The translations under genes and the position numbers were made by a program. A stretch of 33,751 bases of DNA from Thermodesulfovibrionia bacterium (GTDB taxonomy: Bacteria; Nitrospirota; Thermodesulfovibrionia; JACRGW01), in assembly GCA_919902995.1 (NCBI GenBank), contig CAKKSD010000041.1:1-33751 (forward strand), in the 5' to 3' direction. Under the pieces are notes generated by a model. The model was not told the origin of the DNA, ran no database searches, and saw only the letters and a list, made by a program, of their open reading frames with translations. Below, one piece after another: positions 194-33,445 of the stretch (position 1 is its first letter; each line of letters starts with the position of its first letter).

Positions 194-1891
194 ATGGCTA
201 AATTCAGATACGACAACTATACTAAAGAGCAGCTTTTAGAAAAAATCAAGCAGCTTGAAAAGCACCGCTACGGACTTGCGTGGGAAGACAAACAGGAAGA
301 TGTTGCAGAACAGTGTGTTAAAGAATTGCCAGCGTTACATGAAGAAATTACAAAAGAAATTATAGCCAACGATAAGTTACCGAACAATATTTTAATTGAA
401 GGAGACAATTACCATTCTCTTTATACTCTCAATTTTACTCACAAGCGAAAAGTTGACGTAATCTACATTGATCCACCCTACAATACAGGCAATAAAAGCT
501 GGCGTTACAATAATAACTATGTTGACAAAGAAGATAGATATAGACATTCTAAATTCATATCCTTCATGAGCAAACGCTTGCGATTAGCGAAGAAACTTTT
601 AAGGGACAGCGGAATATTAATTTGTGCGATTGACGATTATGAGTTAGCAGCATTAAAACTATTGCTTGATGACATCTTTAATGAGCAAAATCGACTAGGA
701 ACATTGGTGGTGGTTCACAATCCAAGAGGAAGAAATGACGACAAGTTTTTTGCAACCCAACACGAGTATTTGCTTATCTACGCAAAGAATTCTGAGAAAG
801 CGCATGTAGGTCATTTCTCGTTGACCGAGGAAGATAAAGACCAATACAAGCAGTTTGATGACATCTCAACCTTCTCAGAAACATCTTTTATCAGAACAGG
901 AAATAATTCAAAAAGAGAAGAACGACCAAATTTATATTATCCTATTTACTACAATGAAAAGAAAAAACAACTATCACTTGAAAAACAAGATGGTTGGCAA
1001 AAACTTTTACCAATTAATGCAGAGGGAGAAGAAAGAACTTGGAGATGGGAGAAAAAAACATTTCTAGAATTGCACGAAACCGAGCTCTTTGTAAAAAAGG
1101 TAAAAGGCTTAAACAAAATATTCAAAAAAAGAAGACTGCGTGAAACCACTGGTAAAAAGCCGAAGACAGTTTGGTATGATCCCAAGTATGATGCTTCTAG
1201 CAATGGGATTATGATTCTTCAAAAAATATTAGGGAGAGGAAATACATTCAATTATCCTAAATCATTGTATGCAGTTAGAGATATTCTAGAAATAACTACA
1301 AAGCCGAACTCTTGTATTTTAGATTTCTTCGCCGGCTCTGGCACAACAGGTCATGCGGTTTTAGAATTAAATCAACAGGACGGAGGCAATCGCCAATTCA
1401 TTCTTTGCACAAATAACGAAAACGGAATTTGCGAAGAAGTTTGTTATCCCAGAATAAAAAAAGTCATAAAGGGATATAACGGGAACAAACCTATTCCTGC
1501 CAATCTCAAATACTTCAAAACAGAATTTGTTCCACAAGTAATTACTGATAACGACAAACGGGTGTTAGTAAATCGCAGCACAGAATTACTTTGCCTTGCT
1601 GAAAATACTTTTGAACTCGTTAAGCAGTCAAAACGAAAACTGGAGTTTGCGATTTACAAAAACAACAAGCAATTTACAGCCATCATTTATGATGAAGATG
1701 CCATTGAGAAATGCAAAGAAGAATTGAAAGCGTTAAAGCCAAAAGTAAAAACAGCAATTTATGTTTTCAGTTACGACCATGACTATAACGCAGAAGATTT
1801 TGATGACTTAACTATTCGCTTTGATGTAAAGCCAATTCCCGAAGCGATCTTAAATGTGTATCGCAAAAACGCAAAACTCAGAAAAAAATGA
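194..1891 (+). CDS. mod: Type III restriction-modification system, DNA methyltransferase subunit (Mod)
   Basis: This is a 565-residue site-specific DNA methyltransferase, most likely making N6-methyladenine. The catalytic motif DPPYN is at residues 93-97 and precedes the SAM-binding motif FFAGSG at 378-383, which is the beta-class order typical of type III Mod proteins. The segment between them should carry target recognition. The C-terminal 150 residues lack further methylase motifs and may contact Res. The stop overlaps the ATG of the next gene by four bases (ATGA), so the two are translationally coupled, as usual for mod-res pairs. No Shine-Dalgarno sequence precedes the ATG. A modification role protecting host DNA from the Res partner follows from family knowledge; the recognition sequence cannot be read from the protein. 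Confidence 0.9.
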   Translation: MAKFRYDNYTKEQLLEKIKQLEKHRYGLAWEDKQEDVAEQCVKELPALHEEITKEIIANDKLPNNILIEGDNYHSLYTLNFTHKRKVDVIYIDPPYNTGNKSWRYNNNYVDKEDRYRHSKFISFMSKRLRLAKKLLRDSGILICAIDDYELAALKLLLDDIFNEQNRLGTLVVVHNPRGRNDDKFFATQHEYLLIYAKNSEKAHVGHFSLTEEDKDQYKQFDDISTFSETSFIRTGNNSKREERPNLYYPIYYNEKKKQLSLEKQDGWQKLLPINAEGEERTWRWEKKTFLELHETELFVKKVKGLNKIFKKRRLRETTGKKPKTVWYDPKYDASSNGIMILQKILGRGNTFNYPKSLYAVRDILEITTKPNSCILDFFAGSGTTGHAVLELNQQDGGNRQFILCTNNENGICEEVCYPRIKKVIKGYNGNKPIPANLKYFKTEFVPQVITDNDKRVLVNRSTELLCLAENTFELVKQSKRKLEFAIYKNNKQFTAIIYDEDAIEKCKEELKALKPKVKTAIYVFSYDHDYNAEDFDDLTIRFDVKPIPEAILNVYRKNAKLRKK

Positions 1892-4698
1892 AAAATATAA
1901 ATTATCAGGATACTTATATTAATGAACTAGCTGATACAGCTTTGAAATTTCTGAATGCTAAATTCAGGGGCCAAAGCACAATTGTATTTAAAGCGCCGAC
2001 TGGTTCAGGCAAAACTTACATGGTTTCACAGGCTCTTACAAAAATTGTAAAAAGCAGCAAAACATCTTATTCATTTATCTGGATCTCTGTCAACACGCTT
2101 CACGAACAAAGCCGGCAAAACCTTTTAAGATATTTGGAAGATGAACGCCTTTTAGACTGTATTACTATCGACGAAATCCAAAACAAAACTATCGAGGAAA
2201 ACGAAATTATTTTCATTAATTGGGATAGCTTGATTAAAGAGAACAATATTTTTCGAATGGATAATGAAAGTGACTGGAATTTAGAAAGTGTTGTTTCCAA
2301 TACAAAAGAAGAAGGCAGAGAAATTATTTTAATTATTGACGAAAGTCATCGTACAGCTAAGGCCGAAAAAGCAAAAGATGTAGTTAAAGAAATTAACCCT
2401 AAACTTATTCTTGAAATGACAGCAACGCCTTTGCCAAGCCAAGGAACGTTGATTGATATTCCGCTAGGTGAAGTAATTGCTGAAGGAATGATTAAGCGTG
2501 AAGTGCAAATCAATCCGGGGGCACATCATATTAAAGAGAACAAGGAACTTTTAGATGTTGCTTTAAAAAAGAGAAAGCAACTAAAAGCCGCCTATGAAAG
2601 CAGGGGACTAAAAATAAATCCACTTCTGCTAATTCAAATCCCGAATAAAAGAGCGACCGATATGACAGCACCGGAAGATTACATCATCGGCCTTTTGGCG
2701 GAACATAATATTACGCAGTCCAATGGTAAGTTGGTCACTCGCCTATCTGGTGACGATATTAAAGAACTTGATGCAAGAGTTAAACCTAATGACAGCTCAG
2801 TTGATGTTTTAATTTTCAAAGAAGCAATTGCATTAGGTTGGGATTGCCCCCGCGCTTCAATTCTTTTTTTGCAGCGCGAGTGGAAACAAGATAGGTATGT
2901 CTTTAACATACAAACCCTCGGGCGCATTATGCGAATGCCTGAGCAGAAGCATTATGAAGAAAAACCCGAACTCAATGTCGGCTATGTATATTCCGCCTCT
3001 GACAATTTTGAAATTGTTCAAGAATTGGCAGACGACTATGCAAGTTCGTTACAAATGGAAAGAGACGAGGATAGGTATTTAAAGCCTGTGAAAATTCACA
3101 GCGAATTTATCCGAAGAAAGAGAGAACTTACACGGCTTTCAGGTGATTTCAAAAAATGTTTATTTGAAGCAGCAGATGACTTGCTAATTAAAAACAACAT
3201 AAACCCAAACACAAAAGAGATAACTAAATCATTCGCTGTGGAAGGGAAAGCAACAACCATTGATATTGCCCAGAAAATCGAATTTGAAAAACGAATCAAT
3301 ATTAAAAAAGACATCAGAGAAATAACTGATAGTTATTCTAACTTTTGCGGCGATTTGGCGTCGCCATACTCCAAAGCCCGTTCATCCCAAATCATCAAAT
3401 CATCGCTTCGCTCCTGGTTTAAGGAAGTTTTTAGCATTGCGGATGAAGACCAAATTGCAATTATCGTAATGCAACGCAATAATAATCCTAATTTCAAACA
3501 ACTGCTTGAAGACGCCAAAGAGAAATACAAATATCTTCCAACGAGAAGCGAAGAAGTTGTTTCAACAGAAGATTGGGAAGTTCCAGAGACTATCAGTATC
3601 TTCACTGATTTCGCAATCGTCGAAAATTCATCAAAATCAATTATCAAAGAAACCGACAATAGGAAACTTTGTACAAAGAAAAATAAGAATGGCAAAATCG
3701 ATTTATCAAATCCTGAATTGCAATTTGTTGAAGGATTAGAGAATTCCGACGATGAACTTCAGTGGTGGTTTAAGAATTCTTCTGGAGAAAGTAAATACTT
3801 CGGCATTGCTTATAAAAAAGAGACTGGACACTATTATGGTTTTTATCCTGACTTCATTATTAAAACCAAGAAAGAAATACTGATAATTGAGATTAAAGAC
3901 AATAAAGATTTTAGAAATGCTGACAATGCTCTGAAACTTCAAGCGGGCAGGGATTATATATCAAGGTTTGAGCGCAAAGAAAAAATACGTTTCTATATTC
4001 TTTCACCCGATGACTACTATTATTTTTATCAGCTTCTTCAAGAGCAGGATTTGGATAAGTTTAAATCAACTTTTGAAGAAAAGTTGCTCCGTTTCAGCCA
4101 AAGTCAACGGAAAATTATAGAAAATAAAAAAGAACAGGAGAGGAGTGAAAGCGATAAGTTTACCTTAGAATTATTGTCTGAACTTGATACGACTATAAAT
4201 GAACTTGAAGACCACAAACTAAGAAACGAACTCCTGCGGCTTACTTTGAAAGATGCGCAAGAAAATATTGAAACGCTTTCAAAACAACTTTCAGAGCAGA
4301 AACCTGAAAAAGATGAAAAAGTAAAAAACAAAATACCGACACCTTTCAACATCTGTATTTTAGGTGAAGTTTCAGATGAAACACTAATAATGCAAGAATT
4401 ACAAAAATATTTCACTAAGCAAGGCATTGGAACAAAGGACTGGGACATCAAGTTTATTAACAATGCCAAACTTAAGAACGCTGACGTATTACGTTCACTT
4501 GTAAAAGGACAAAGCCATTTCAACCTGCTTGTAACTGGGCAAATTCACCATCATGCAGGAAAAAGTAACAAAAGTGCAAACATCATTTCCGAACTTGCGA
4601 AGCCCAAATATGTCACTCATAAAATCGGTAGCGATCCGAAGGAACTATTGACACCAGATAAAGCCCTATCTGCTGTGGACAGCTACTTGCGGAAATAG
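1888..4698 (+). CDS. res: Type III restriction-modification system, restriction/helicase subunit (Res), with an unusual C-terminal domain
   Basis: This 936-residue protein combines a superfamily 2 helicase and a nuclease. Walker A is APTGSGKT (36-43), motif II is DESH (151-154), motif III is TATP (178-181), and the motif VI region QTLGRIMR is at 342-349. A PD-(D/E)xK nuclease centre follows: PD at 654-655 and EIK at 668-670. It would translocate or switch on DNA using ATP and cut together with Mod. The nuclease is normally near the C-terminus in Res proteins. Here about 265 residues follow it: a charged region likely to form a coiled coil (about 740-815) and a compact alpha/beta segment (about 818-936) that begins FNICILGE and contains a GQIHHH motif. 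I do not recognise that segment. The start overlaps the mod stop. Confidence 0.88.
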   Translation: MKNINYQDTYINELADTALKFLNAKFRGQSTIVFKAPTGSGKTYMVSQALTKIVKSSKTSYSFIWISVNTLHEQSRQNLLRYLEDERLLDCITIDEIQNKTIEENEIIFINWDSLIKENNIFRMDNESDWNLESVVSNTKEEGREIILIIDESHRTAKAEKAKDVVKEINPKLILEMTATPLPSQGTLIDIPLGEVIAEGMIKREVQINPGAHHIKENKELLDVALKKRKQLKAAYESRGLKINPLLLIQIPNKRATDMTAPEDYIIGLLAEHNITQSNGKLVTRLSGDDIKELDARVKPNDSSVDVLIFKEAIALGWDCPRASILFLQREWKQDRYVFNIQTLGRIMRMPEQKHYEEKPELNVGYVYSASDNFEIVQELADDYASSLQMERDEDRYLKPVKIHSEFIRRKRELTRLSGDFKKCLFEAADDLLIKNNINPNTKEITKSFAVEGKATTIDIAQKIEFEKRINIKKDIREITDSYSNFCGDLASPYSKARSSQIIKSSLRSWFKEVFSIADEDQIAIIVMQRNNNPNFKQLLEDAKEKYKYLPTRSEEVVSTEDWEVPETISIFTDFAIVENSSKSIIKETDNRKLCTKKNKNGKIDLSNPELQFVEGLENSDDELQWWFKNSSGESKYFGIAYKKETGHYYGFYPDFIIKTKKEILIIEIKDNKDFRNADNALKLQAGRDYISRFERKEKIRFYILSPDDYYYFYQLLQEQDLDKFKSTFEEKLLRFSQSQRKIIENKKEQERSESDKFTLELLSELDTTINELEDHKLRNELLRLTLKDAQENIETLSKQLSEQKPEKDEKVKNKIPTPFNICILGEVSDETLIMQELQKYFTKQGIGTKDWDIKFINNAKLKNADVLRSLVKGQSHFNLLVTGQIHHHAGKSNKSANIISELAKPKYVTHKIGSDPKELLTPDKALSAVDSYLRK

Positions 4699-4727
4699 AT
4701 ATGAGAAAATAATAAAGGAGACAAGCT

Positions 4728-4774
4728 GCTTTATTCAGAATAAAGCGGTCGCCCCGGCGATACTCTTCGCTGGG
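4728..4774. repeat. Two tandem hairpins in the res-OLD gap
   Basis: The 234-base gap (4699-4932) after res holds two neighbouring inverted repeats. The first is GCTTTATT / AATAAAGC around a CAG loop (4728-4746). The second is CCCGGCGA / TCGCTGGG with one G-T pair and a six-base loop (4753-4774). Neither is followed by a T-run, so termination is uncertain. I see no gene in the gap beyond an 18-codon open frame at 4777 that I do not trust. Confidence 0.4.
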
Positions 4775-4932
4775 TAATGGAAATAAAGGACAAGTACATT
4801 ATCTGCAGGGCAAAGGGTAAGAGATTGAGATAGTAGAGTGGAGAGGGTGAAATTTACAAGTGTTATAAAGAGGTTTGCCTGCCCTTCTGGTTCGTCAAAA
4901 ACTGCTTTGAAAAGTCAAGAAGTGTGTGAGGG

Positions 4933-6804
4933 ATGTTTGTAGATAAACTTTACATCAAGAATTATCGCTGTTTTGGAGAAAGTCCTTCAATAGTTGAGTT
5001 TTCCAACTCTGGATTAACTGCTTTGATAGGACCCAATAATGTGGGTAAGAGCACTGTTTTAAAAATACTGGACATCTTGCTCGGCGATAAATGGCCCTCT
5101 TCAAGGTTCACCGAAGATGACTTTCATGACAATAAGTTAGATAAAGATATTGTTTTAGCTTGTACTTTTACTAATCCGATAAGGTTCGACATAAAAGGCT
5201 CTAACATACCTGTGGATGGGGTTGCAATAAAAGCAAAACACCTGTCTACAGGTTATGGAGAAAGTTCAATTGATGTAGAATATAAATTACTGGAAAGCAA
5301 CAACAATATTGATGATTTAGATTTTGAAAGCCTTGATATAGCTACCTATAGAAAATGGGATGGAACTAAAGGTAATCCTGTTTATATCGGGCAAGAAATC
5401 AAAAACCAGTTACCTATAGTAATAACAATACCGTTGATTAAGTTACAAGCAGAGCAGCCTACAAATAAGTGGAGCGTTTTGGGAAGAATGTTGCAGAAAG
5501 TAGAAAGTGGCTTTACTAAAGATAAAGACCTAAAGGAGTCCTTTGAAGAAAAGATAAAAGAGGCTGTCAAGATACTTAGAATTGGTGACTTTAATGAAAT
5601 TGAAGCGGATGTCAAAACATTCTGGAATAACATGAAGCCTACAAATTTAACCGGTACTGAACTCAAATTTCTTGACTATGAACCGTGGCGCTATTACCGC
5701 CAATTTAAACTCTCGATAAAACAAAATGGCAAAGATGTTCCTATTGAATCTTTAGGTGAGGGTGTCCAACGTCTTGCAATCATCGCCTTGTATCGTACAT
5801 ACCTGAAAAAACATGGAAGAAATGAAAGGGCAATCTTGCTTATAGAAGAGCCTGAAAGCTATTTACATCCTCAGGCGAGAAAGACCCTGTTCCATATTCT
5901 TAAACAAGCAATCAAAGAGGAAGCCGCTGTCGAAGGGCAAATTATTTATACAACACACTCAGAAAATTTTATTGAATGCGGTGATTTCGATGATGTCGTA
6001 ATTTTTTTACGTAAAGGGGATGGTGGCAATGTTGAAGTAAGACATATAAGTGAGGAGTCATTAAAGAAGCATACGATAGCGCTTGGCCAACCGGAATCAG
6101 AAATTAGCGATCAGCACATCCACTATCGGCTTATAGAGACAATTTCTCAGGGTCTAAAGGAGGCATTGTTTACTCATAAAACGGTTATCGTGGAAGGCCC
6201 CTCAGAAATTGAGCTATTCATATTTTTCAGCGACGCCGAAAAAGAGCAGATTGGTATTGTCTCTGCTGGCGGAAAAAGCAACATTCCTGCCATTTATTCC
6301 TTTCTCACTGCCTTTGGTGTGCCGTGCTTGGTTGTTATAGATAGAGATTCAGAGAAGGCAGAGAGAACTAATGAAGACAATAGTAAGATTGTTAAAGCAT
6401 TAAGTCAGGAAAATGCGAGAGAACCGGATGAGACTAAAATGGATATTTTGTTGGATGAAATATCAAAAGTAGAAGATGGCGAGATATTTTCGAGAGATCA
6501 CCTTTTAGTTTTTGGGAAGAACTTAGAGACTGTTTTAAGCAAAAAGGTTTTCGAATGGGCAGAACTTTTAAAGTCGCTTCGGGAGTCTTTTAAGTTACCT
6601 GCTGAAAAAGCCAAGCCCGGTCCACGAGATGTTCAAGCATTAGGTCTTGTTTATGCCGGTGAAGATTCGGGGAGTGAAGAATTAAAGGGGAAAATAGAAA
6701 CAGCCAACTCGGGCTTGGAGCAATTACGGAAAACACTTAATGAGTTCATAGCACAAGAAGTGAAGAATCCTCAACTATTGACTCCTAAGGATTCAGGACG
6801 TTAA
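4933..6804 (+). CDS. OLD-family ATP-dependent endonuclease (ABC ATPase plus TOPRIM)
   Basis: The protein has 623 residues. The N-terminus is an SMC/RecF-like ABC ATPase: Walker A GPNNVGKST (33-41), signature SLGEGVQ (273-279) and Walker B ILLIEEPE (301-308). The C-terminal half is a TOPRIM nuclease: VIVEGPSE with the acidic residue E421, and DRD at 470-472. This is the architecture of OLD (overcoming lysogenisation defect) nucleases, which act against phage or foreign DNA. GajA of the Gabija system has the same plan but is paired with a UvrD-like helicase GajB. No such helicase gene is adjacent, so a stand-alone (class 1) OLD is the better call. The ATG at 4933 is chosen because FVDKLYIKNYRCF is the usual family start; a GAGGG run sits directly against it, which is too close for a good Shine-Dalgarno site. 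It stands alone, 234 bases after res. Confidence 0.87.
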   Translation: MFVDKLYIKNYRCFGESPSIVEFSNSGLTALIGPNNVGKSTVLKILDILLGDKWPSSRFTEDDFHDNKLDKDIVLACTFTNPIRFDIKGSNIPVDGVAIKAKHLSTGYGESSIDVEYKLLESNNNIDDLDFESLDIATYRKWDGTKGNPVYIGQEIKNQLPIVITIPLIKLQAEQPTNKWSVLGRMLQKVESGFTKDKDLKESFEEKIKEAVKILRIGDFNEIEADVKTFWNNMKPTNLTGTELKFLDYEPWRYYRQFKLSIKQNGKDVPIESLGEGVQRLAIIALYRTYLKKHGRNERAILLIEEPESYLHPQARKTLFHILKQAIKEEAAVEGQIIYTTHSENFIECGDFDDVVIFLRKGDGGNVEVRHISEESLKKHTIALGQPESEISDQHIHYRLIETISQGLKEALFTHKTVIVEGPSEIELFIFFSDAEKEQIGIVSAGGKSNIPAIYSFLTAFGVPCLVVIDRDSEKAERTNEDNSKIVKALSQENAREPDETKMDILLDEISKVEDGEIFSRDHLLVFGKNLETVLSKKVFEWAELLKSLRESFKLPAEKAKPGPRDVQALGLVYAGEDSGSEELKGKIETANSGLEQLRKTLNEFIAQEVKNPQLLTPKDSGR

Positions 6805-6993: not shown

Positions 6994-7105
6994 ATCTCTG
7001 ATATTCTTCCAAAGAAACAAGGATTGAAACAATTTATTAGATTCCTCGACTTCGCTCGGAATGACAACGTCTCAGAGATACTTCCAATAAAACAAGGATT
7101 AAAAT
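6994..7105 (+). CRISPR. Degenerate two-repeat CRISPR remnant, not type I-C
   Basis: Two 37-base units lie 75 bases apart (6994-7030 and 7069-7105) and agree at 29 of 37 positions. Both contain AACAAGGATT; the first ends ATTGAAAC, the hallmark 3' end of many CRISPR repeats, and the second ends ATTAAAAT, as expected for a decayed terminal copy. The 38-base segment between them has spacer size. It contains a sequence (7040-7065) with a GGAATGAC end like the dispersed chromosomal elements elsewhere in this window. The repeat differs in sequence and length from the type I-C repeat at 8073. No adjacent cas genes match it. Confidence 0.5.
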
Positions 7106-7677: not shown

Positions 7678-7697
7678 TTGTACAAATAATTGTACAA
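7678..7697. promoter_or_regulatory. Paired YefM operator palindromes
   Basis: Two TTGTACAA palindromes (7678-7685 and 7690-7697) are centred 12 bases apart. The yefM-yoeB operator of E. coli also consists of TGTACA palindromes with this spacing. The upstream one overlaps the -10 box of the yefM promoter, so binding should block transcription. Confidence 0.8.
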
Positions 7698-7717
7698 ATA
7701 AAAAATTAGTTTGTCAA
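7689..7717 (-). promoter_or_regulatory. Promoter of yefM-yoeB
   Basis: On the minus strand TTGACA (7717-7712) and TACAAT (7694-7689) are separated by 17 bases. Expected transcription start is near 7682. The -35 box touches the ribosome site of the cas1 remnant that runs the other way. Confidence 0.75.
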
Positions 7718-7725
7718 GAGGAGAT

Positions 7726-7944
7726 ATGAAGAAACTTCTTAACACTCTCTTTGTTACAACTCAGGGAGCATATCTTTCAAAGGAAGGCGAGACCGTTATT
7801 GTGAAGGTTGACGGCGAAATATCCCTTCGCCTGCCTGTTCACACACTCGGAGGGATTGTTTGTTTCGGGCAAGTATCATGCAGTCCGTATTTGATGGGAT
7901 TCTGTAAGTTCACATGGTTTCTTAATAGTGTTCGCAACAATTGA
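7726..7944 (+). pseudogene. cas1: Truncated cas1 (type I-C), N-terminal 60 codons only
   Basis: The frame begins MKKLLNTLFVTTQGAYLSKE and continues with LPVHTLGGIVCFGQVSCSP and YLMGFC, an excellent match to the N-terminus of type I-C Cas1 integrases, normally about 340 residues. After Cys60 (nucleotide 7905) the sequence becomes unrelated (KFTWFLNSVRNN) and stops, so a deletion junction lies near 7906. The catalytic Glu-His-Asp residues and all of cas2 are lost, and cas3, cas5, cas8c, cas7 and cas4 are absent upstream. An AGAGGAG ribosome site lies just before the ATG. The product cannot be an active integrase. Confidence 0.85.
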
Positions 7945-8072
7945 AAGTTGTTTTGAAACAAAGAAATATTTATACTGCTCTTTGACAACTGATTTTTTTT
8001 CGAATCGTATATTGAGGGGATCGCAAAAAGCGGTCAATAAGTAGTTAATTTATAATGAGTTATAAGAAGACA
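7945..8072 (+). other. Probable CRISPR leader remnant
   Basis: This AT-rich, non-coding 128-base stretch lies between the cas1 fragment and the single type I-C repeat, where the leader of the array would be. It contains CTCTTTGACAAC and a T-run. The identification rests on position only. Confidence 0.45.
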
Positions 8073-8104
8073 GTCGCCCCTCGCACAGGGGCGTGGATTG
8101 AAAC
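8073..8104 (+). CRISPR. Solitary type I-C CRISPR repeat
   Basis: A single 32-base unit starts GTCGCCCC and ends GTGGATTGAAAC, the canonical form of type I-C repeats. It has a seven-base-pair stem (CGCCCCT / AGGGGCG) around CGCAC. No second copy follows: after 35 bases, one spacer length, comes the 3' end of the tRNA-Cys gene. It is what remains when an array collapses to one repeat, and it matches the subtype of the nearby cas1 scrap. Confidence 0.8.
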
Positions 8105-8139
8105 AAATTCTTTAAGTTTCTGTGTCTCATTAAAAAAAT

Positions 8140-8215
8140 TGGAGGCGGCGAGCGGATTCGAACCGCTGAATAAAGGTTTTGCAGACCTCTGCCTTATCCA
8201 CTTGGCTACGCCGCC
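8140..8215 (-). tRNA. tRNA-Cys (GCA)
   Basis: Read on the minus strand it folds as a full cloverleaf: acceptor GGCGGCG pairing with CGCCGCC, anticodon loop CTGCAAA with anticodon GCA, TTCGAAT in the T loop, the U discriminator typical of tRNA-Cys, and an encoded CCA (8142-8140). It lies one base after tRNA-Gly in the same transcript. Its 3' end is the right border of the defence island. Confidence 0.95.
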
Positions 8216-8216
8216 C

Positions 8217-8291
8217 TGGAGCGGGAAACGGGATTTGAACCCGCGACTCTCGCCTTGGCAAGGCGATGCTCTACCACTGAGCTATTCCCGC
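8217..8291 (-). tRNA. tRNA-Gly (GCC)
   Basis: On the minus strand the acceptor GCGGGAA pairs with TTCCCGC, the D arm is GCTCAGTGGTAGAGC, the anticodon loop TTGCCAA carries GCC, and TTCAAAT is in the T loop. The discriminator is U and CCA is encoded. It is the first gene of a two-tRNA transcript. Confidence 0.95.
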
Positions 8292-32836: not shown

Positions 32837-33145
32837 TCACACATTTGCGTATTTAAGTTTGTTGACTGTGTGAATGGATTCAATATCTTTCTTATACCGT
32901 TTTTGTGCCTCTTCAATATCATAAAGCGTCTGCAGATTCATCCAGAACTCTGCTGGGATGCCGAAAAACTTACCGAGCTTTAAAGCAGTTTCTGCTGTAA
33001 CGCCTCTTTCACCCTTTATAATCTGGCCTAATCTTGTTTGTAACAGGCCTGTTTCTTTAGAGAGGCGATAGACGGATATCCCCATCGGCTCCAAAAATTC
33101 TTCTTTAAGCACTTCTCCGGGGTGTATATTCTTTAATGTCCTCAT
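32837..33145 (-). CDS. higA: Antitoxin HigA (helix-turn-helix, addiction-module type)
   Basis: The 102-residue protein begins with the family signature IHPGEVLKEEFLEPMG and carries an XRE-type helix-turn-helix (about 24-60: VYRLSKETGLLQTRLGQIIKGERG) and FGIPAEFWMNLQTLYD. It would neutralise HigB and repress the operon. It follows higB by 12 bases, the inverted toxin-first order usual for higBA. Confidence 0.92.
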   Translation of the reverse strand: MRTLKNIHPGEVLKEEFLEPMGISVYRLSKETGLLQTRLGQIIKGERGVTAETALKLGKFFGIPAEFWMNLQTLYDIEEAQKRYKKDIESIHTVNKLKYANV

Positions 33146-33157
33146 ACTAACCTCCTT

Positions 33158-33445
33158 TCAATGATAATCTGTTATTTCAACATCAAAGGCGTTTCCACCT
33201 TCCCACTTAAAACATATACGCCATTGGTCATTTATCCTTATGCTCCATTGACCTTCTCTGGTTCCCTTTAATGCCTCAAGTCTATTATTGGGAGGAACCC
33301 TCAGTGTTTTAAGTGTCGTTGCTGCAGCAATCATTCTCAATTTTCGTCTCGCCGTATTATGAATCTGAGAGGGTAGCCTTATCTTCTTTGAAAACCGCCC
33401 CTTCCATACAAATTCGGACTCCTCGTCTTTAAATGATGCTATCAT
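33158..33445 (-). CDS. higB: Toxin HigB (RelE/ParE superfamily)
   Basis: The 95-residue protein has the HigB pattern: SFKDEESEFVWKG, a helical middle with LRMIAAATTLKTLRVPPNNRLEALKG, GQWSIRINDQWRICFKW and the C-terminal VEITDYH. HigB cleaves mRNA on the ribosome. The start codon lies eight bases behind a -10 box and has no Shine-Dalgarno site, so the mRNA should be nearly leaderless. Confidence 0.93.
   Translation of the reverse strand: MIASFKDEESEFVWKGRFSKKIRLPSQIHNTARRKLRMIAAATTLKTLRVPPNNRLEALKGTREGQWSIRINDQWRICFKWEGGNAFDVEITDYH

Follow-up and report, generated by a model that had tools for sequence, protein, structure and literature searches.

Beside two tRNA genes lie the beginning of a cas1 gene, a leader-like stretch, and a single CRISPR repeat. 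Do these pieces represent the remains of a type I-C CRISPR-Cas locus, by how many losses did they arise, and how long ago? The segment belongs to a stretch of 33,751 nucleotides, analyzed as a whole and called the window below. The initial annotation had described a collapsed I-C locus produced by one deletion. On the strength of its layout and of the deletion documented below, we consider it very probable that the segment is a recent relic of such a locus; its features are collected in Table 1.

Table 1. Features of the relic and of its immediate surroundings (positions in the window)
Feature	Position	Strand	Basis
Decayed repeat 1 of a second CRISPR type (37-nt class), ~130 nt from the yoeB 3' end	6995..7029	+	83% identical to copy 7070-7104
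Decayed repeat 2 of the same 37-nt type, ~50 nt from the yoeB end	7070..7104	+	Repeat comparison, family search
yoeB toxin gene, full length, 84 aa	7157..7411	-	Pfam YoeB_toxin, 1.8e-39
yefM antitoxin gene, full length, 83 aa	7408..7659	-	Pfam PhdYeFM_antitox, 3.6e-24
Likely yefM operator, TGTACA cores at 7679-7684 and 7691-7696, 12 bp center to center	7679..7696	.	Sequence; spacing as in the excerpted text of PMC7730913
Predicted yefM promoter, TTGACA-17-TACAAT	7689..7717	-	11/12 consensus bases
5' stub of type I-C cas1, codons 1-60	7726..7905	+	TIGR03640
12 extra codons read from leader DNA up to the first stop	7906..7944	+	Sequence, leader alignment
I-C leader, complete but for its beginning (left half of the GCGAACC...GGTTCGC pair)	7906..8072	+	Alignment with 12 intact loci
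Single canonical 32-nt I-C repeat	8073..8104	+	Assembly search; identical first repeats in L032 and L021
35 nt separating the repeat from tRNA-Cys	8105..8139	+	Residual spacer or tRNA trailer
tRNA-Cys and tRNA-Gly, right edge of the relic	8140..8291	-	Rfam; sequence

The cas1 stub, leader, and repeat

Residues 3 to 61 of the 72-residue frame at 7726-7944 aligned with positions 1 to 59 of the 340-position Cas1c profile TIGR03640 (E value of 1.6e-20). Pfam Cas_Cas1 matched residues 8 to 60 with 47.7 bits (cutoff, 22.3), and PADLOC called the stub Cas1c. When two full-length Cas1 proteins were searched against the whole window by tblastn at E values up to 1, only residues 1 to 60 were recovered, in one frame. 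The initial annotation had proposed that only the first 60 codons of cas1 remain and that the reading changes abruptly after Cys60, near position 7906. Both points were borne out: homology stopped at codon 60 (position 7905), and the frame then reads leader DNA up to its stop. The fragment is specific to Cas1c, in frame, and in native order with the leader and the repeat. It shared 95 to 97% amino acid identity with the two best intact loci (among the best 80 of 402 relatives).

A frameshifted, otherwise complete cas1-cas2 was rejected as an explanation of the abrupt end, and we give it almost no credence. With the full-length Cas1 and Cas2 queries, none of the window's frames showed the homology resuming; Cas2 gave only short matches (E values of 0.38 and 0.63), located elsewhere or on the opposite strand. 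No point in favor of a frameshift was found.

Among the matches listed, the nearest intact cas1 was that of genome G020, which differs from the stub by 22 bases over the 60 codons. Twenty-one of these differences fall at third codon positions and one at a first position, and a single amino acid is changed. For comparison, 29 pairs of intact cas1 ends with 18 to 28 differences showed 1 to 8 residue changes. Relaxed selection has left no sign yet in the stub. Amino acid change being nearly absent, the loss is therefore recent on that scale, in support of the earlier suggestion that it may be so.

The leader was aligned with its counterparts from 12 intact loci, of which genome G138 contributed two. 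All 37 columns that were invariant among the 12 loci were retained in the window, including TCTTTGACA and two TCGC blocks. What had been annotated as a leader-like stretch is thus a true I-C leader that has lost its start; missing from this region are the end of cas2 and the GCGAA block that opens the leader. The repeat had been annotated as the one canonical 32-base repeat; indeed, a search of the 2.01-Mb assembly that allowed up to three mismatches found no other match, and the reversed control gave 0. The array with the same repeat that the annotation had proposed to look for was not found elsewhere in the assembly at this threshold, and the test for an array returned one repeat, not two or more.

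Beyond the repeat, positions 8105 to 8138 had no match beside this tRNA in six relatives and are therefore read as a residual spacer or tRNA trailer. Genome G144 also carries the adjacent tRNA-Cys/tRNA-Gly pair, and at its gathering thresholds Rfam listed nothing but the two tRNAs. One contig of G002, from the same family, starts at tRNA-Gly, and ARAGORN found no complete tRNA in five stretches beside bioB-like genes of relatives. A predicted leader transcript (7980-8291) would run through the lone repeat and become antisense to the two tRNAs, which lie on the opposite strand.

Could the leader and its one repeat still work, either as a naive array or as a regulatory unit of the CreTA/CreR kind? 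The conserved columns of the leader and the repeat are intact, and CreTA modules, as described in the excerpted text of PMC9458426, use one or two repeats with a toxin. The same excerpts portray CreTA repeats as degenerate and dependent on Cascade, whereas the repeat in the window is canonical, being identical to the array repeats of L032 and L021. The gene content of the assembly also argues against a working mini-locus. The assembly (2.01 Mb, 69 contigs) is 94.45% complete, so that an intact locus could lie in a gap. Pfam Cas1 found the stub alone, while the same family was detected in 9 of 14 control genomes. Likewise, no RAMP proteins (effectors of type III, sought as candidate partners of the second repeat type) were found in it, although G140, G144, and 4 of 14 control genomes have the family. 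In the window, searches for Cas3, Cas5, Cas8, Cas7, Cas4, and Cas2 at E values up to 1 yielded nothing beyond weak short matches; Cas3, Cas5, Cas8c, and Cas7 are absent, as is a complete cas1 with cas2. One joined query of seven proteins recovered only the stub from the assembly and hence no cognate effector, a result to be read in the light of a query without a positive control for effectors: in G020 it found cas1, cas4, and cas2, and in none of five genomes an effector gene. We therefore regard a working mini-locus as very improbable. The relic itself has no CRISPR function.

Traces of related systems were seen outside this assembly. The same-genus genome G001 has a contig whose edge holds the last part of an array with repeats of this type; at 83% completeness, this genome gave no match to the joined query. 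In a plasmid collection, three Nitratidesulfovibrio plasmids matched with 68 to 69% identity over 37% of the query.

The deletion joint and the number of losses

G020 matched the window in two collinear pieces, 7726-7904 (88% identity) and 7907-8105 (80%). In G020, 1,284 nt separate them, covering the remainder of cas1, cas2, and the 19 nt that follow its stop codon. The same two-piece match with missing DNA between was found in G138, G124, G129, L032, and L034. The matches of cas1, repeat, leader, and junction are far beyond chance. Since intact relatives carry both sides of the joint with about 1.28 kb between them, the joint is, judged by these alignments, a deletion of that size relative to G020 and not a frameshift. 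Codon 60 of cas1 is thereby fused to sequence that starts about 20 nt downstream of cas2, where the left half of the leader's GCGAACC...GGTTCGC pair has just ended. In some relatives, CTG is found on both sides of the joint and would allow a candidate 3-nt microhomology.

The joint lies away from any repeat, which argues against an assembly artifact, whether a multispacer array collapsed onto one repeat or a misjoin of cas1 and leader. The assembly is fragmented, the contigs of several relatives end in or near arrays, and the array end in G001 likewise sits at a contig edge, all of which would suit an artifact. However, the repeat occurs on no other contig of the assembly (though contigs with spacers could have gone unbinned), the same architecture exists in the independent genome G056, and an artifact would leave the missing upstream cas genes to be explained separately. 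An artifact is thus improbable.

Returning to the deletion account, we infer that at least three losses are needed, because the leader survives between the lost genes and the array and because the upstream cas genes are gone as well. Contraction of the array must have been a separate event, since the leader lies between it and the deleted genes. The earlier proposal that one deletion had taken the rest of cas1, cas2, and all but one repeat was therefore right about the losses and wrong about the single event. The collapse of a type I-C locus stands, but its extent has to be widened: cas3-cas5-cas8-cas7-cas4 are absent from the window, too. The ancestral layout would have been cas3-cas5-cas8-cas7-cas4-[yoeB-yefM]-cas1-cas2-leader-array. 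One loss would have removed cas3 to cas4, on the side that now holds a decayed second array and other defense genes; another, everything from cas1 codon 61 to some 20 nt downstream of cas2; and a third would have reduced the array to one repeat, most simply by repeat-repeat recombination, including its tRNA-side end. Any order among them is likewise an inference.

The second array is represented by the two decayed repeats at 6995-7104, which had been missing from the initial list of remnants and are spaced by 75 nt. Their 37-nt family was found in 22 of the 150 genomes searched, our own included (reversed control, 0), and, by eye, the genes near it elsewhere resemble type I-B or III. In 2 of 19 other YoeB-bearing stretches, yoeB was closely followed on its 3' side by repeats of this family with the same relative orientation: one copy in G081 (L146, 8484-8509) and five copies at a contig end in G144 (L151, 4308-4627). 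Lone intergenic copies were seen at L108 10109-10134 (contig C32 of our own assembly), L201 2737-2762, L202 1534-1559, and L200 1226-1251, and a lone copy after a rodA-like gene (named by eye) is common to our genome and G001. The defense genes to the left of the relic (194-6804) are mod (194-1891) and res (1888-4698) of a type III restriction-modification system and an OLD-like ATPase/TOPRIM nuclease (4933-6804; best PADLOC match, Old). At the far end of the window (32837-33445, minus strand) lies a second small gene pair, HigA/HigB-like by eye, of 102 and 95 aa.

The yefM-yoeB pair and the proposed cas4-cas1 slot

The yefM-yoeB pair stands head to head with the cas1 stub, and the -35 box of the predicted yefM promoter is 8 nt from the cas1 start codon. 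A promoter scan found 2 sites compared with 2.1 in shuffled sequences, so the yefM promoter is called on its match to 11 of 12 consensus bases and on its position. The translation of yoeB contains all four of the residues that we take to be catalytic in the Escherichia coli toxin (Glu46, Arg65, His83, and Tyr84). With its own operator and predicted promoter, the pair may still work.

Did the pair belong to the lost locus? In the intact I-C loci L031 and L036, yoeB-yefM lies between cas4 and cas1, accompanied in L036 by an IVP gene. The joint between yefM and cas1, GTCAAGRGGANANATG, is common to the window, L036, and contig C41 of G138; on C41, which carries cas1, the operator and the few bases before cas1 are as in the window and L036. 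A tree built from 22 yefM-yoeB sequences placed the window as sister to contig C45 of G138, where the pair adjoins cas4-cas7-cas5-cas3; the support of 94/96 was just below the mark of 95. C45 and C41 are unjoined and neither has yefM next to that operator, so the intact G138 locus is a reconstruction from the ends of two contigs. The pair also occurs independently of cas genes: 8 of the 18 members of the window's clade came from stretches without an adjoining cas gene, among them L150 with a cas4-like match about 3 kb away. Sequence comparison nevertheless points to yefM-yoeB as most likely a part of the ancestral I-C locus, and the list of remnants was incomplete in this respect as well. An unrelated pair, with the edge of the upstream deletion at yefM, was ruled out, given that intact I-C loci carry the pair.

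The position of the pair within I-C loci varies. In L018, L019, and L147, it occupies the interval from cas7 to cas4, with partial and full copies of IVP on its flanks, and in L145 it stands between full and broken cas4 copies; the pairs of L019 and L147 are identical and may represent the same locus. The flanking IVP or cas4 copies and the pair span 5899-7270 in L018, 6125-7352 in L019, 6615-8536 in L145, and 2479-3706 in L147, and give the impression that yefM-yoeB comes in along with a duplicated part of the neighboring gene. Such changes of place favor an alternative in which yoeB-yefM and the 5' end of cas1 were transferred as a unit into the island beside the tRNAs. G081 fits that picture, as one flank of an I-C array there holds the pair and a 46-codon stub, and a repeat of the 37-nt type adjoins yoeB. 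In the window, however, leader and repeat follow the stub in native order and orientation, the direct product of a deletion in place, and we think a moved cassette unlikely.

A census of such relics comprised 102 distinct cas1 5' ends (at least 27 places listed plus the best 80 of 402 relatives, minus five duplicates). Being seeded by the 5' end of cas1, it is blind to 3' stubs, and it is a nonrandom sample of the nearest relatives of one 60-residue query. Among these matches, 97 ends were full, 3 were cut by contig ends, and 2 were true stubs. On contig C26 of G081, a stub of 46 codons adjoins yefM-yoeB and is followed by unrelated DNA. On contig C5 of G056, 41 to 48 codons (the edge is inexact) adjoin a frameshifted RhuM gene and are followed by the leader tail and one I-C repeat. 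The architecture of the window thus recurs once among the matches listed. This lone I-C repeat of G056, like the shared copy of the 37-nt repeat described above, directly follows a rodA-like gene. The yefM-yoeB pair of G140 has 22 nt of an I-C repeat some 75 nt ahead of yefM, and the 8 kb examined there showed no cas gene.

Five duplicate loci, three contig-cut cas1 copies, and two intact copies with no cas4 nearby were set aside before the space between cas4 and cas1 was examined. It exceeded 250 nt in 24 of the 95 intact loci with cas4 in reach (best 80 of 402 relatives and the matches listed). By Pfam and tblastn, these spaces contained RhuM (10 loci, one copy truncated and just under the cutoff), Bro-N (3), DUF433 with or without DUF5615/DUF2283 (3), MazE-like and PIN genes (2, one MazE below the cutoff), yefM-yoeB (2), DUF4160/DUF2442 (1), and 23S_rRNA_IVP (1). 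The two wide spaces without a clear gene, L026 and L027, were outside the domain scan. Examples of such cargo, mostly of toxin type, are found in L020, L028, L098, L047, L080, and L101. Cargo adjoined all 3 stubs, the window included, versus 24 of 95 intact loci (one-sided P of 0.019, or 0.070 without the window); the enrichment is suggestive only.

These patterns raise the possibility that, in the I-C loci of this clade, the space between cas4 and cas1 is a slot for the exchange of toxin cargo and that the cargo acts as an addiction anchor that shapes decay. Deletions would then eat the cas genes on both sides and stop at the cargo, leaving a scar of cargo, cas1 stub, leader, and one repeat. 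Since yefM and cas1 share the region between them, the antitoxin operator could have controlled cas1-cas2 before decay. The 5' end of cas1 might persist because it directly abuts the yefM promoter. Two observations speak against addiction: the RhuM cargo of G056 is itself frameshifted, and contig C83 of G137 has a yoeB with two internal stops inside a largely intact I-C locus. We hold the slot, the anchor, and the former control of cas1-cas2 together as a tentative proposal, more doubtful than probable.

Alone, the relic is one more decayed CRISPR locus. Its added value is that decay was caught soon after the cas1 deletion and that one other species bears the same scar. If the survival of particular deletions is indeed biased by toxin pairs, why type I cas loci harbor toxin-antitoxin genes could be tested from genomes alone, and relics should keep cargo more often than intact loci carry it.

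Comparison with known systems

Both CRISPR decay and toxin-antitoxin genes inside cas loci are known already. In Escherichia and Salmonella, decay proceeds by partial or total cas deletion, and the methods of that study allowed single-repeat loci (PMC2886076, excerpted text). Cas gene deletion and single-repeat loci are what the window has in common with it; the study, in those excerpts, concerned four Escherichia/Salmonella CRISPR loci, whereas here a cas1 5' stub, a leader, and one I-C repeat lie beside a toxin-antitoxin pair. PhdYeFM antitoxins, toxin partners, and 23S_rRNA_IVP genes occur within cas loci according to the excerpted text of PMC3936711, in whose collection toxin-antitoxin systems were confined to type I loci and IVP was often found with Cas4. 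Those excerpts name no cas4-cas1 slot and no survival of a pair after loss of the system, and RhuM is absent from the text of that paper. No report of the slot, or of cargo that outlives an I-C system, was found in the searches of the PMC literature, which is thin in subscription papers.

With the intact type I-C loci L032 and L031, the window shares the 5' end of cas1, the leader, and the repeat, and it differs from them in having no effector genes, cas4, cas2, or array. The addiction idea and a repeat beside a toxin recall CreTA. As presented in the excerpts of PMC9458426, however, CreTA is an RNA pair under the control of Cascade, whereas the window has a protein pair with its own predicted operator. 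The closest likeness in the pair itself is to the yefM-yoeB type II system of PMC7730913, with which, as far as its excerpted text goes, it shares both genes and the TGTACA cores 12 bp apart; it differs from that system in standing head to head with a remnant of cas1.
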